From: Nitrospinia bacterium
Lineage (GTDB): Bacteria; Nitrospinota; Nitrospinia; Nitrospinales; JAJDAT01
NCBI GenBank assembly: GCA_029261715.1
Contig: JAJDAT010000049.1
Span: 186,001 to 250,000, forward strand
Length of the DNA: 64,000 nt
Direction: 5' to 3'
Shown here: piece after piece, positions 33,720 to 45,523 of the stretch
Layout of the letters: every line of letters begins with the position of its first letter
Numbering within the stretch: position 1 is the first letter of the stretch
Notes under the pieces: generated by a model
Databases searched by the model: none
The model's input: only the letters and a program-made list of their open reading frames with translations
Told to the model about the DNA's origin: nothing
Program-made: the position numbers and the translations under genes

Positions 33720-34703
33720 ATGATTGAACAATGGAAGAAATATATTTGGATTGGCGTTGCGGGTTTTATTTTTGCTGTGACTCTTGGTTCCTATGTAGTC
33801 ATAAATTATGCATATCCATTTATTCCAGAGGTTTTAGTTGATCTAGTTCGAAAACCAGAATTGCTTAAGAACGCAAAAGCAAAAGATTGCGCCGATTGCC
33901 ATGAGGAAATTTTTGAGGCTTGGGAAAAAAGTCGCCATTTTCAAGCATGGACAAGTTCTGTTTTTATTGAGGATTCCGAAAATCGTTCAAAAGAAAAATG
34001 CCTTTCTTGTCACGCTCCAGATGTAGTGACGCCAGGCGAAAAGCCATCCCTAAGATTGGACCACCGTGATGACGGTGTATTTTGCATTTCTTGTCACGTT
34101 CGTGATGGAGCGATGGAAGGTCCCTTTGAATTGTTTTCACCGCCACATCCAACAAGAAAAAACCAGGATTATAGAAAGTCGAAGTTTTGTTCTTCCTGCC
34201 ATCCTAAAACTTTTAAAGAGTGGAAAGCGATTGGTAAAGACGCAATTTGTCAGGATTGTCATATGCGCCGCAAGCCAGGACGCTTGACTCAAAAGTTTCC
34301 GCTTTCTTTTTTTCATTCCTCTAAACAAGTAGCAAATCATTCATTCCCCGCAGGGATCGTGGAAGACGAGGATATTGCCGTGGATTATAAGTGGAAAGGA
34401 ACTGCGATTACAGTCAAATTGACAAATAAATTTGCGTTACATAACCTGCCGACAGCGGATAATGGAGATCCAAGGTTTTATTTATACTTAACTCTATTTG
34501 ACGCGAATGGCGAAGAACTTGACCGCGCTAAGGAAATTCTTGCCCCCCAGCAGGAAACCGCTTTAGTTTACGGCCAACCAACGCCCTTTCTTTTTTTAGC
34601 TCCTAAAGGGGCTGTCCGTGCCGAGATCGAAATAATGCGTAAACCCGCCTGGACTAAAGAAAAACAGTCTATAAAAAAACTAGAAATACTTCCTTCCAAC
34701 TGA
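33720..34703 (+). CDS. membrane-anchored pentaheme c-type cytochrome
   Basis: This 327-residue protein has an uncleaved-looking N-terminal transmembrane helix (about residues 8-35) and five CxxCH heme sites at residues 57-61, 94-98, 122-126, 157-161 and 177-181. The heme part resembles cytochrome c554-type and other small multiheme proteins (CADCHEEIFEAWEKSRHFQAW). Distal histidines such as His73 and those in FHSSKQVANHSF could be sixth ligands. Residues 205-327 form a heme-free beta-rich domain. It should carry electrons in the periplasm, but the partner is unknown: no oxidase, quinol dehydrogenase or nitrogen-cycle enzyme is adjacent. Confidence 0.9.
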   Translation: MIEQWKKYIWIGVAGFIFAVTLGSYVVINYAYPFIPEVLVDLVRKPELLKNAKAKDCADCHEEIFEAWEKSRHFQAWTSSVFIEDSENRSKEKCLSCHAPDVVTPGEKPSLRLDHRDDGVFCISCHVRDGAMEGPFELFSPPHPTRKNQDYRKSKFCSSCHPKTFKEWKAIGKDAICQDCHMRRKPGRLTQKFPLSFFHSSKQVANHSFPAGIVEDEDIAVDYKWKGTAITVKLTNKFALHNLPTADNGDPRFYLYLTLFDANGEELDRAKEILAPQQETALVYGQPTPFLFLAPKGAVRAEIEIMRKPAWTKEKQSIKKLEILPSN

Positions 34704-34767: not shown

Positions 34768-34860
34768 TTAAACTTATTGAAATTTATATAAATTAATATA
34801 AAATAGAGGCTTATAGGAATAAAAGTCATTTAATTCTTTTTTTAATTTGGCCTGAAGGTA

Positions 34861-35313
34861 ATGAAGAAAAACGGAAAATTAAATTATTTGTTATTTTGCG
34901 CGTTTGTTGCGGTGTTTGCGCTGAACAATATAAATTGCAATCCAATTGAAGCCATTACAGATACTTATGGCGATATTGTAGACGAGATTCTGCCAGAAGA
35001 CGAAAATAAAGAAGAGAATGTTGGACAAGTGATTATCAATGTTCCAGCTACTGGAACAGGAAATACAATTGCAACTACCGTAACCGTCTTAAATCAACTT
35101 GGAAATTTGATGCCTAGGATAGTAGGGGTAAATTGTACTTTTACCGATGTTGCTACGAACCTCGTTATTACCCAAACTTCTGGAGCCACGACCGATGGCG
35201 TTGCTCAATGTAATGCTGTGAATGGAAGCTCTTTAGGAGTAACTGTTAGTCAAGTGGCGGTTTCCGAAGGAGTATCTTCCCAGGCGCAGGTTTTTTTCAT
35301 TGGCGTAACTTGA
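34861..35313 (+). CDS. small secreted/lipoprotein, tandem paralogue 1 of 3
   Basis: This 150-residue protein has an N-terminal signal peptide ending at Cys26 (ALNNINC, a poor lipobox). It then carries the shared motif C-N-P-I-E-A-I-T-D-T-Y-G-D-I-V-D-E, an acidic linker (residues 42-52) and a beta-rich Ig-like domain of about 90 residues with a conserved cysteine pair (VNCTFTD and AQCNAVNGSS). It is probably exported and perhaps lipid-anchored. I know no family for it. It starts a cluster of three similar genes with the same order of elements. Confidence 0.7.
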   Translation: MKKNGKLNYLLFCAFVAVFALNNINCNPIEAITDTYGDIVDEILPEDENKEENVGQVIINVPATGTGNTIATTVTVLNQLGNLMPRIVGVNCTFTDVATNLVITQTSGATTDGVAQCNAVNGSSLGVTVSQVAVSEGVSSQAQVFFIGVT

Positions 35314-35349
35314 TTTATCTATTTAAAAGATTTAGATGATATTTGGAGT

Positions 35350-35805
35350 ATGAAAAAAAAGAAAGCTTATAGTCTGATTTATGGCCTATTTTTTTTAGCC
35401 TTGTTGATTGGCAATACGGGTTGCGAGCCTCTTGAAGCAATAACAGATGCTTATGCGGATATTGTAGATGATATTGGCCCTGATGATGATAATAATGAGG
35501 AAACTGTTGGCACCGTGTCTATGACGCTTATTTCATCTTTTACAAACGTCGATGATTTTACGATAACAGTTTTAAATTTAAATGGAGATCGTTTAACGCG
35601 ACCCGTCGCGGTGACTTGTATTTTTACGGATAAAAATACTCAGGAAATAGTTTCAACGACTACTGCTTCTACAGTCGATAGTCAAGCTACTTGTTCATTC
35701 ATTAATGGTAGTACGAGTTTTATTTCTTATATTGCAGTTGCCACTGCAGAGGGTGTTACGTCGGACTCCTCAAATTTATTTGTAGAACCTGTTGGTTCAA
35801 CTTAA
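35350..35805 (+). CDS. small lipoprotein, tandem paralogue 2 of 3
   Basis: This 151-residue protein has a basic N-terminus (MKKKKAY), a hydrophobic stretch and Cys25 in IGNTGC, a plausible but non-canonical lipobox. The shared CEPLEAITDAYADIVDD motif follows, then an Asp/Glu/Asn linker and an Ig-like beta domain (FTITVLNLNGDRLTRPVAVTCIFTD, then ATCSFINGS). It lies 36 bases after the first copy and nine before the third. The divergent C-terminal domains and conserved N-terminal motif suggest gene duplication followed by diversification. Confidence 0.72.
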   Translation: MKKKKAYSLIYGLFFLALLIGNTGCEPLEAITDAYADIVDDIGPDDDNNEETVGTVSMTLISSFTNVDDFTITVLNLNGDRLTRPVAVTCIFTDKNTQEIVSTTTASTVDSQATCSFINGSTSFISYIAVATAEGVTSDSSNLFVEPVGST

Positions 35806-35813
35806 AAAATTTA

Positions 35814-36305
35814 ATGAAGATGGAAGTTAATATTCATAATGTTAACAGAGTTTCTAAATGCTTTATTTTGAGAAAATGGATATTTTTAAGCATTTTTATT
35901 TTGTTATTTCAAGGTTGCGAACCTCTTGAGGCTATAACTGATACTTACAGTGATATTATTGATGAAGTATCGTCTGATGGGAATGATGATAATTTAGCTG
36001 TAGGTCAGGTAATAGTTGAACCATCTTTTACAAGCGGAACAGCAGTTACTATGACAGTGACCGTTTTGAATAAAGAGGGAAATTTTATAAGAGACGATAC
36101 GGAAGTTAAATGTATTTTTACCAATAGCGAAGTTCCTGAATTTTTTTTCGATTTTATTGAACGGACAATTTCTGGAACAGTAGTATGTAACACAAATAAT
36201 ACTGCAGGTACTTCTCCTTTTCCTATTTCCTTTGTTGCGACGTCTGAAGGAGTTTCTAGTGATCCCATTGCAATCACATTGCCTCCAGGAGCTACAACCG
36301 GATAA
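35814..36305 (+). CDS. small lipoprotein, tandem paralogue 3 of 3
   Basis: This 163-residue protein has a longer, more basic N-terminus, a hydrophobic stretch (WIFLSIFILLF) and Cys35 in LLFQGC. The shared CEPLEAITDTYSDIIDE motif follows, then an acidic/Asn linker and the Ig-like domain (MTVTVLNKEGNFIRDDTEVKCIFTN, then GTVVCNTNN). With copies 1 and 2 it forms one probable transcription unit. The function is unknown; a surface-exposed or cell-envelope role is inferred from the signal and fold. Confidence 0.72.
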   Translation: MKMEVNIHNVNRVSKCFILRKWIFLSIFILLFQGCEPLEAITDTYSDIIDEVSSDGNDDNLAVGQVIVEPSFTSGTAVTMTVTVLNKEGNFIRDDTEVKCIFTNSEVPEFFFDFIERTISGTVVCNTNNTAGTSPFPISFVATSEGVSSDPIAITLPPGATTG

Positions 36306-36403: not shown

Positions 36404-37357
36404 ATGTCTTCAATCTTTCCCTCCTCTCTTGATTTATCGGTTGTAATTGTTAATTACAAATCCGTTGATTTTCTGCGTTCTTGTATTCGATCAATTAAAG
36501 AAACGGCAGAAGGAATTTCCTATGAAATTATCGTCGTTGATAACGATTCTCAAGATGGAAGCGACAAAGAAATTCGTTTTGGGTTTCCAGATATCAAGTT
36601 AATTGTTAATCGAAATAACTTGGGGTTTTCCAGCGCTAATAATCAAGGAATCAAGATTTCTAAAGGAAGGTATATTCTTTTATTAAACAACGATGCTACT
36701 GTCACGCCAGGAGCGCTCAATTGCTTAATAGATAGTATGGAACGGCATCCTGGAGTGGGGTTGATGGGGGGGAAGCTAACGAATACAGACGGCACTGTTC
36801 AACAATCTTTTGGTAATTTAATTCCATATATTAGCGAGTTTATCCAAACTAAGTTGTTTTGGAATTTTTACGAAATTAACAAAAATCGAATTGTTGGTTT
36901 GTTGATGGAAAAACTTCACTGTCAACCAAGATATGTGGATTGGGTCAAAGGCGCTTGTATGATGTTGCGTCGCGAAGCCATTTTCGATGTTGATTTTTTA
37001 GACGATAAGTTTTTTATGTATTTTGAGGAAGCGGATCTCTCCATCAGATTAAAGAAAATAGGATGGAAAGTGTACTTCGAACCTGGAGCTGAAATTGTTC
37101 ACCATGGAGGCATTAGCGTTTCAAAGAACCGTTTTCGGGTTTTTTTAGAGCGTCGCCGGAGTCAGTTATACTTTTATAAAAAACATTATGGCGACCTTGG
37201 TCTTTGGTGGATTAAAAACTACCTTCTTTTGAAGTTGAATAAAAATAAGTGGGTATCACAGTTTAAGCGACGTAAAAAACTGACTTTATCCACAGAAGAT
37301 AAAGAACAAGATAGACTTTTAGCGGAAACATTTAAATTAGTTCGTGAATTTAAATAG
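36404..37357 (+). CDS. family 2 glycosyltransferase
   Basis: This 317-residue inverting GT2 starts with DLSVVIVNYKSVDFLRSCI, then has the VVDNDSQDGSDKEI loop, LLLNNDATVTPG (DxD-like) and a C-terminal MYFEEADLSIRLKKIGWKVYFEPGAEIVHHGG acceptor block. It is the same broad class as the GT2 at 1795-2808 but without its hydrophobic C-terminal stretch. It stands alone on the plus strand downstream of the lipoprotein cluster; the product is unknown, probably a surface glycan. Confidence 0.87.
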   Translation: MSSIFPSSLDLSVVIVNYKSVDFLRSCIRSIKETAEGISYEIIVVDNDSQDGSDKEIRFGFPDIKLIVNRNNLGFSSANNQGIKISKGRYILLLNNDATVTPGALNCLIDSMERHPGVGLMGGKLTNTDGTVQQSFGNLIPYISEFIQTKLFWNFYEINKNRIVGLLMEKLHCQPRYVDWVKGACMMLRREAIFDVDFLDDKFFMYFEEADLSIRLKKIGWKVYFEPGAEIVHHGGISVSKNRFRVFLERRRSQLYFYKKHYGDLGLWWIKNYLLLKLNKNKWVSQFKRRKKLTLSTEDKEQDRLLAETFKLVREFK

Positions 37358-44410: not shown

Positions 44411-45481
44411 TTAATAAAATCCAAAAATGGGGTAAATTAGGTTTGCCAGAGTCTTTGACTCTTTCAGTTCTTTTGCTCCAACTGTTCCTATTTTGTTTTG
44501 TCCTAACTTTAAAGCTTCTAGATTAGCGAAAACCTGAGCTCTTGCTAGGGCGATAGCGCCTTGGTTTTCGATTTGATTGAAATTCAAATCTAGTTCTTTT
44601 AAATTAACTAATGTTTTCGAATTAGCTAATGCCAAAGCGCCAACATCCGTTATTTGATTGCGCGCCAATGTTAACATCTCAAGCTTGTTAAGCTTAGGAG
44701 ATTTGGCAATAGCGATTACCGATTCGTCTGTCAAATTGTTCTCTTCAAGGTGTAATTCCTTTAATTCTTCCACATAAGGAGAATTTAATAAAGCGATTAC
44801 TCCCGCATTACCAATAAATTGGTTATTTAATTGGCTTATTTTTCCAGATCGATAGATGGCTTCTAATTTTCTTTTCAAATTGAATTCAAAAAGCTCATTT
44901 TGACCTAATTTATTTAGAGGATTAAAAGCCAAATTTAAATTTTTTAATTGTTTTAATCGTTTTGAATTTTTAAGCCAAGCGACTCCTTTATTTCGAATAA
45001 GATTAAAGTTCAAGTTTAGTTCTTGTAAATTAGCAAAGGTTGACTCTTCAGCTAATTTTTTAGCCCCCATGTCGGTAATCTTATTTCTGTATAGGTTTAG
45101 ATATTCTAAATTTCTCAAAGACTTGGAATTGGCTAAATATCCCATGCTTTTATCTGTAATCTGATTATGCTCTAGGCTTAGGCTTTTTAAATTTTTCAGG
45201 TGAGCGGAATTGGCAATAGCTTTTACTCCTTCGTCGCCAACTTGACCTTTATAGATAATCAATGTTTGGACAGAATTCATGAGGGAATAATTTGATAAAA
45301 ATTTAGCGCCTCTATTGCCAATAGGTTTTTCGTTGAGCCTTAAAGAAGAGGAATTTCTTCGAAGTTTTTTCTTCACATATTTTTCTAATTTTTCCAAGCT
45401 CATTAGAGGTTGTGAATATGCTGTAGAAGAAATTAAGCAAAAAATCAATGTTGCTGGAATTAACCAACCGAAGAATCGCAT
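44411..45481 (-). CDS. secreted leucine-rich repeat protein (RI-like)
   Basis: This 356-residue protein has a signal peptide (residues 1-23, cleavage after AYS) and about ten leucine-rich repeats of about 24 residues with the pattern LxxLxLxxNxIxDxGAxxLAxS (for example LKSLSLEHNQITDKSMGYLANS), in two blocks split by a less regular stretch near residues 185-215. The repeats resemble the ribonuclease-inhibitor/GALA type. It probably mediates protein binding in the periplasm or at the surface. It lies between lpxD (42 bases away) and accA (22 bases) on the same strand, an unusual place for such a protein. Confidence 0.85.
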   Translation of the reverse strand: MRFFGWLIPATLIFCLISSTAYSQPLMSLEKLEKYVKKKLRRNSSSLRLNEKPIGNRGAKFLSNYSLMNSVQTLIIYKGQVGDEGVKAIANSAHLKNLKSLSLEHNQITDKSMGYLANSKSLRNLEYLNLYRNKITDMGAKKLAEESTFANLQELNLNFNLIRNKGVAWLKNSKRLKQLKNLNLAFNPLNKLGQNELFEFNLKRKLEAIYRSGKISQLNNQFIGNAGVIALLNSPYVEELKELHLEENNLTDESVIAIAKSPKLNKLEMLTLARNQITDVGALALANSKTLVNLKELDLNFNQIENQGAIALARAQVFANLEALKLGQNKIGTVGAKELKESKTLANLIYPIFGFY

Positions 45482-45523
45482 AGAAAAACTTTAGGGCAAT
45501 TTATTTATTTTAATACTACTATT

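Follow-up and report, generated by a model that had tools for sequence, protein, structure and literature searches.

The window, a stretch of 64,000 nucleotides, comes from a Nitrospinales genome of 5.3 Mb, the only representative of its family among the genomes compared; in line with this placement, its biotin synthase matches records of named Nitrospinaceae and Nitrospinota at 75-80%. The window contains three adjacent forward-strand genes encoding small exported proteins (Table 1). The preliminary description had recognised them as paralogs, and their open reading frames have exactly the limits that it gave them. For copy 3, an alternative in-frame TTG start at 35874 would produce a shorter signal peptide. 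The intergenic gaps measure only 36 bp (copies 1 and 2) and 8 bp (copies 2 and 3), so that the trio is probably co-transcribed as a single unit. A promoter-like site in the AT-rich gap upstream of copy 1, the top site of our scan and recognised by consensus match only (10 of 12 positions), is a possible single promoter for the three genes; the total number of sites in the scan did not exceed that in shuffled sequence. The sole terminator-like site detected lies inside copy 2 and is at chance level. A multihaem cytochrome gene and a family 2 glycosyltransferase gene flank the trio, and neither flank is conserved around it in relatives. GC and GC3 are typical of the window in copy 1 and lower in copies 2 and 3; as there is no composition break, we rejected an origin as a foreign island. 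Elsewhere in the window, an unusually AT-rich gene beside an accA-like gene encodes a leucine-rich repeat protein, and another gene on the same contig, directly downstream of pilQ-aroB, encodes a Ser/Thr-rich lipoprotein that has no Pfam family above cut-off.

Table 1 Features of the trio locus and of the other loci mentioned in the text (window positions unless a contig or locus is given)
Feature	Position	Strand	Description
Copy 1	34861-35313	+	150 aa; signal peptide, ...NNINC, Cys at residue 26, motif CNPIEAITDTYGDIVDE, acidic linker, predicted beta-sandwich domain, Cys92/Cys117
Copy 2	35350-35805	+	151 aa; lipobox NTGC (Cys25), motif CEPLEAITDAYADIVDD, acidic linker, domain with Cys90/Cys115
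Copy 3	35814-36305	+	163 aa from ATG; lipobox FQGC (Cys35), motif CEPLEAITDTYSDIIDE, domain with Cys100/Cys125
Post-Cys motif, copy 1	34936-34989	+	18 codons
Post-Cys motif, copy 2	35422-35475	+	18 codons
Post-Cys motif, copy 3	35916-35969	+	18 codons
Promoter-like site	34777-34804	+	TTGAAA-16-TAAAAT
Multihaem cytochrome gene	33720-34703		Five CXXCH motifs
Family 2 glycosyltransferase gene	36404-37357
Leucine-rich repeat protein gene	44414-45484		356 aa, signal peptide-like start, GC 33%
Ser/Thr-rich lipoprotein gene	C49:55491-56099 (L059:15491-16099)		202 aa, two Cys
PilW-like minor pilin gene	L060:586-2391 (contig C49)		601 aa
flgH-flgI lipoprotein pair, source genome	C17 (L109:3344-6579)		Big_1 gene at C17:4082-4528
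flgH-flgI loci read, Nitrospinales	L078, L079, L080, L083-L086, L088, L093, L094, L097-L100, L104, L106

Judged by their sequences, the three proteins are true paralogs with a similarity well beyond chance. They are about 31-41% identical (33-41% in the alignment), and a search of the whole genome with copy 2 retrieved copy 1 (E 2.4e-27) and copy 3 (E 8.7e-18) and no fourth copy in the 5.3 Mb. A profile of the trio had no match at E <= 0.01 in 61 relatives, and across 77 Nitrospinota genomes only chance-level matches appeared at E <= 1; the best of the weak phylum matches (E 0.05-0.3) sits inside a PilQ-like secretin, and we dismissed them as chance. The copy number is thus three here and none in the relatives searched. 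The plasmids and phages searched contained no relative of the trio, nor did GTDB contigs or viral contigs when scanned with narrow motif patterns, which could miss distant relatives. Sequence searches of Pfam, NCBIfam, PHROGs, and the PDB yielded sub-threshold chance matches only, which bears out the initial impression that no known family has this signature: profile and pattern searches match the trio alone and no described family. As far as these sequence comparisons go, the trio is a lineage-restricted orphan family, carried by one genome only among those searched.

The most conserved part of the proteins is the segment that begins at the cysteine following the signal peptide, C-[EN]-P-[LI]-E-A-I-T-D-x-Y-x-D-I-[VI]-D in all three copies, with EPLEAITD or NPIEAITD as the first residues after the Cys. 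Invariant columns number 11 of the 18 counted from the Cys but 23 of the 105 in the remaining mature protein (Fisher p = 0.0013, a rough test given that the 18-column window was picked by eye). Synonymous codons are mixed in this segment and the residues remain unchanged: fourfold sites differ between copy pairs at 2 of 4, 2 of 4, and 3 of 4 positions. The differing third-position bases exclude recent gene conversion or copying as the source of the identity and indicate that the motif residues are under selection at the protein level, so that the near-identical stretch noted earlier is a constrained feature of the family. With up to 3 mismatches allowed, the motif pattern occurs at only these three sites in the genome (reversed control, 0), and it is absent from all other lipoprotein candidates across 0.84 Mb of sampled genome. 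The motif is therefore a family mark rather than a general sorting signal. A one-mismatch match in one relative (genome G014) runs antisense to an infC-like gene and was discarded as chance.

All three proteins carry a signal peptide and a Cys followed by polar acidic residues. To place their lipoboxes in context we applied a simple filter to the same 0.84 Mb, which gives a list including some clear non-lipoproteins; the plausible lipoproteins in it have G, A, or S at position -1, and at -3 F or L is frequent. The lipobox had been described as non-canonical in all three copies. This holds for NINC in copy 1, whose N at -1 and N at -3 set it apart from all other plausible lipoproteins sampled and which breaks the usual -1 rule; it holds in part for NTGC in copy 2, odd at -3 only, but not for FQGC in copy 3, an ordinary lipobox in this genome. 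The features of a type II signal peptide (K/R in the n-region, a hydrophobic core, and an accepted lipobox) are present in copy 3 and, but for its -3 residue, in copy 2. Lipidation on the Cys is accordingly likely for copies 2 and 3, to judge from these signals, and doubtful for copy 1.

Between the motif and the C-terminal domain lies a linker that is acidic and variable in sequence, as had been proposed, and each of the mature proteins has a pI of 4.05. The domains themselves are 31-37% identical between copies, keep a core pattern (TVTVLN..GN, V.C.FT, and VA.SEGVSS), and contain one conserved Cys pair each. In AlphaFold2 models, built from the three sequences only, copy 3 is confidently predicted to form a sandwich of seven strands (block pLDDT about 73-92 over residues 41-140) preceded by 34 disordered residues, and strands 3 and 5 bear the Cys pair. 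For copy 2 the model is weaker, with six strands, a mean pLDDT of 57, and a low-confidence helix across the motif. Foldseek matches of copy 3 in the PDB were mostly FN3/Ig-type chains or proteins containing such domains (E about 1e-3, best E 4e-4), at low TM-scores of 0.3-0.5 and about 10-20% sequence identity, so that the likeness is at the level of fold only. Among viral models, the matches were of FN3 type together with one Big-1 annotated protein. Model and structural matches for copy 3 thus agree with the Ig-like domain with one Cys pair suggested from sequence, and support an Ig/FN3-type beta-sandwich as a predicted fold class without pointing to any particular family. The trio resembles Pfam Big_1 (PF02369) in this predicted sandwich and in a strand order, aligned by eye, ending in VxAtxEGVSSd, but differs from it by the added buried Cys pair; no copy matches Big_1 at E <= 1, and a genome search with the Pfam model did not recover the trio. 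As for Big_1 domains elsewhere, a PilW-like minor pilin encoded on the same contig has a sub-threshold one, and relatives commonly have matches in open reading frames of some 580-615 aa.

Searching the relatives with Pfam Big_1 also revealed short lipoproteins of about 126-148 aa that have one Big_1 domain and the post-Cys motif C....D.(T/V)GPS. They are encoded next to a second gene, for a Big_2/BiPBP_C-like lipoprotein of about 120-310 aa with the motif C....NP.GPS, and in 16 of the 16 Nitrospinales loci read (flanks called from open reading frame translations) the pair lies between flgH and flgI, encoding the L-ring and P-ring proteins. The source genome has this pair on contig C17, with flanks named FlgH and FlgI by Pfam, whereas the trio is on contig C49 and so is not located between these genes. 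Our literature search found no publication on Ig-like lipoproteins at flgH/flgI; the pair may encode accessory components of the outer rings of the flagellum. These proteins resemble the trio in their lipoprotein signal, conserved post-Cys segment, single Ig-like domain, and neighbouring second Ig-like lipoprotein gene. They differ in their motif sequence, the absence of the Cys pair, the flagellar operon, and the Pfam Big_1 match. We consider it quite unlikely that the trio arose from the flagellar Big_1 lipoprotein by duplication, relocation and divergence. Size, order of parts, and strand pattern are similar, and a full-length hhalign comparison gave P = 1.7e-4 over 126 columns, but this score came largely from the signal peptide and was lost after signal peptide removal and shuffling: the mature-protein profiles scored 13.6-13.7, inside the column-shuffled controls, and 8 to 22 of 150 shuffles did as well as the mature or domain-only profiles. 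Moreover, none of the three copies matches Big_1, and the source genome still has a flgH-flgI pair of its own. At the sequence level, descent of the trio from this family is unproven.

Other explanations differ in what they make of the motif and the neighbourhood. The preliminary description had seen in the trio diversifying surface proteins or adaptors, with copies on the outer face binding different targets and the shared motif docking to one surface machine. The tandem arrangement and the much stronger conservation of the motif than of the domain favour this view, which we nevertheless hold to be unlikely, since a domain identity of 31-37% is also typical of old duplicates under weak constraint and the core pattern of the domain has been retained in every copy. 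In Bacteroidetes, surface export depends on a signal (LES) of the type K-(D/E)2 or Q-A-(D/E)2 near positions +2 to +6, common to many unrelated lipoproteins (PMC5080379). The trio resembles these lipoproteins in that a conserved segment with acidic residues directly follows the lipidated or putatively lipidated Cys; however, LES spans many lipoproteins whereas C[EN]P[LI]EAITD is confined to its own family, and no LES-type signal follows the Cys in any copy, which speaks against the proposed surface location. Docking through a common motif fares no better, as no machine gene adjoins the trio and no partner or pathway gene linked to it was found at the locus. A bolder version, in which the motif segment would be the membrane-proximal docking or sorting element of an undescribed lipoprotein machine and the three domains interchangeable cargo, seems to us very improbable.

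The upstream cytochrome offers a different connection. Of the Nitrospinales genomes searched, at least half share it at about 50% conservation, and in these another small haem protein (Cytochrom_C_2 or C7-like) usually comes next; here this partner is absent, and the trio stands in its place. The trio lies on the same strand directly downstream, in the slot that a second haem protein has in relatives, and might thus encode accessory proteins of the cytochrome. Against this, 158 bp of AT-rich sequence with the promoter-like site separate the two, the trio lacks any haem motif, the cytochrome surroundings of relatives are not conserved with the window, and relatives without the trio still conserve the cytochrome, all of which makes the connection very doubtful. 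Least probable, in our estimation, is that the trio are not lipoproteins at all, and are instead secreted or retained by an uncleaved signal anchor. Such a fate would fit the NINC of copy 1 and the N at -3 of copy 2; yet the Cys occupies the same place after the hydrophobic stretch in all three copies, FQGC is normal for the genome, and no signal peptidase I site was seen nearby.

We therefore favour, with slightly better than even confidence, the reading of the trio as a lineage-restricted tandem family of envelope lipoproteins, each presenting a single Ig-like domain by means of an acidic tether. Each protein would be exported by Sec and lipidated on its Cys via the usual Lgt/LspA route, steps that we derive from the general lipoprotein pathway, and would then presumably be transported to the outer membrane. 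Its initial 18 or so residues would form a short conserved segment beside the membrane, and the acidic, flexible tether would keep the Ig/FN3-like beta-sandwich away from it. Most probably the domain serves in structure or binding, envelope-facing or adhesive, and not as an enzyme. The conserved segment, selected as protein, may contact a partner common to the three copies or may position or sort the lipoprotein.

Nitrospinota include major marine nitrite oxidisers, and with the trio the envelope of this phylum, which is poorly known, gains an orphan family. Its novelty is diluted because small lipoproteins with a single Ig-like domain and a post-Cys motif of their own recur in this genome and in the order; going by the sequences, this is a recurrent design in Nitrospinales and the architecture of the trio is in itself ordinary. 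The finding points to a wider habit of the order, the placing of small Ig-like lipoproteins at envelope loci, which include the conserved flgH-flgI pair, a more testable lead than the trio itself.
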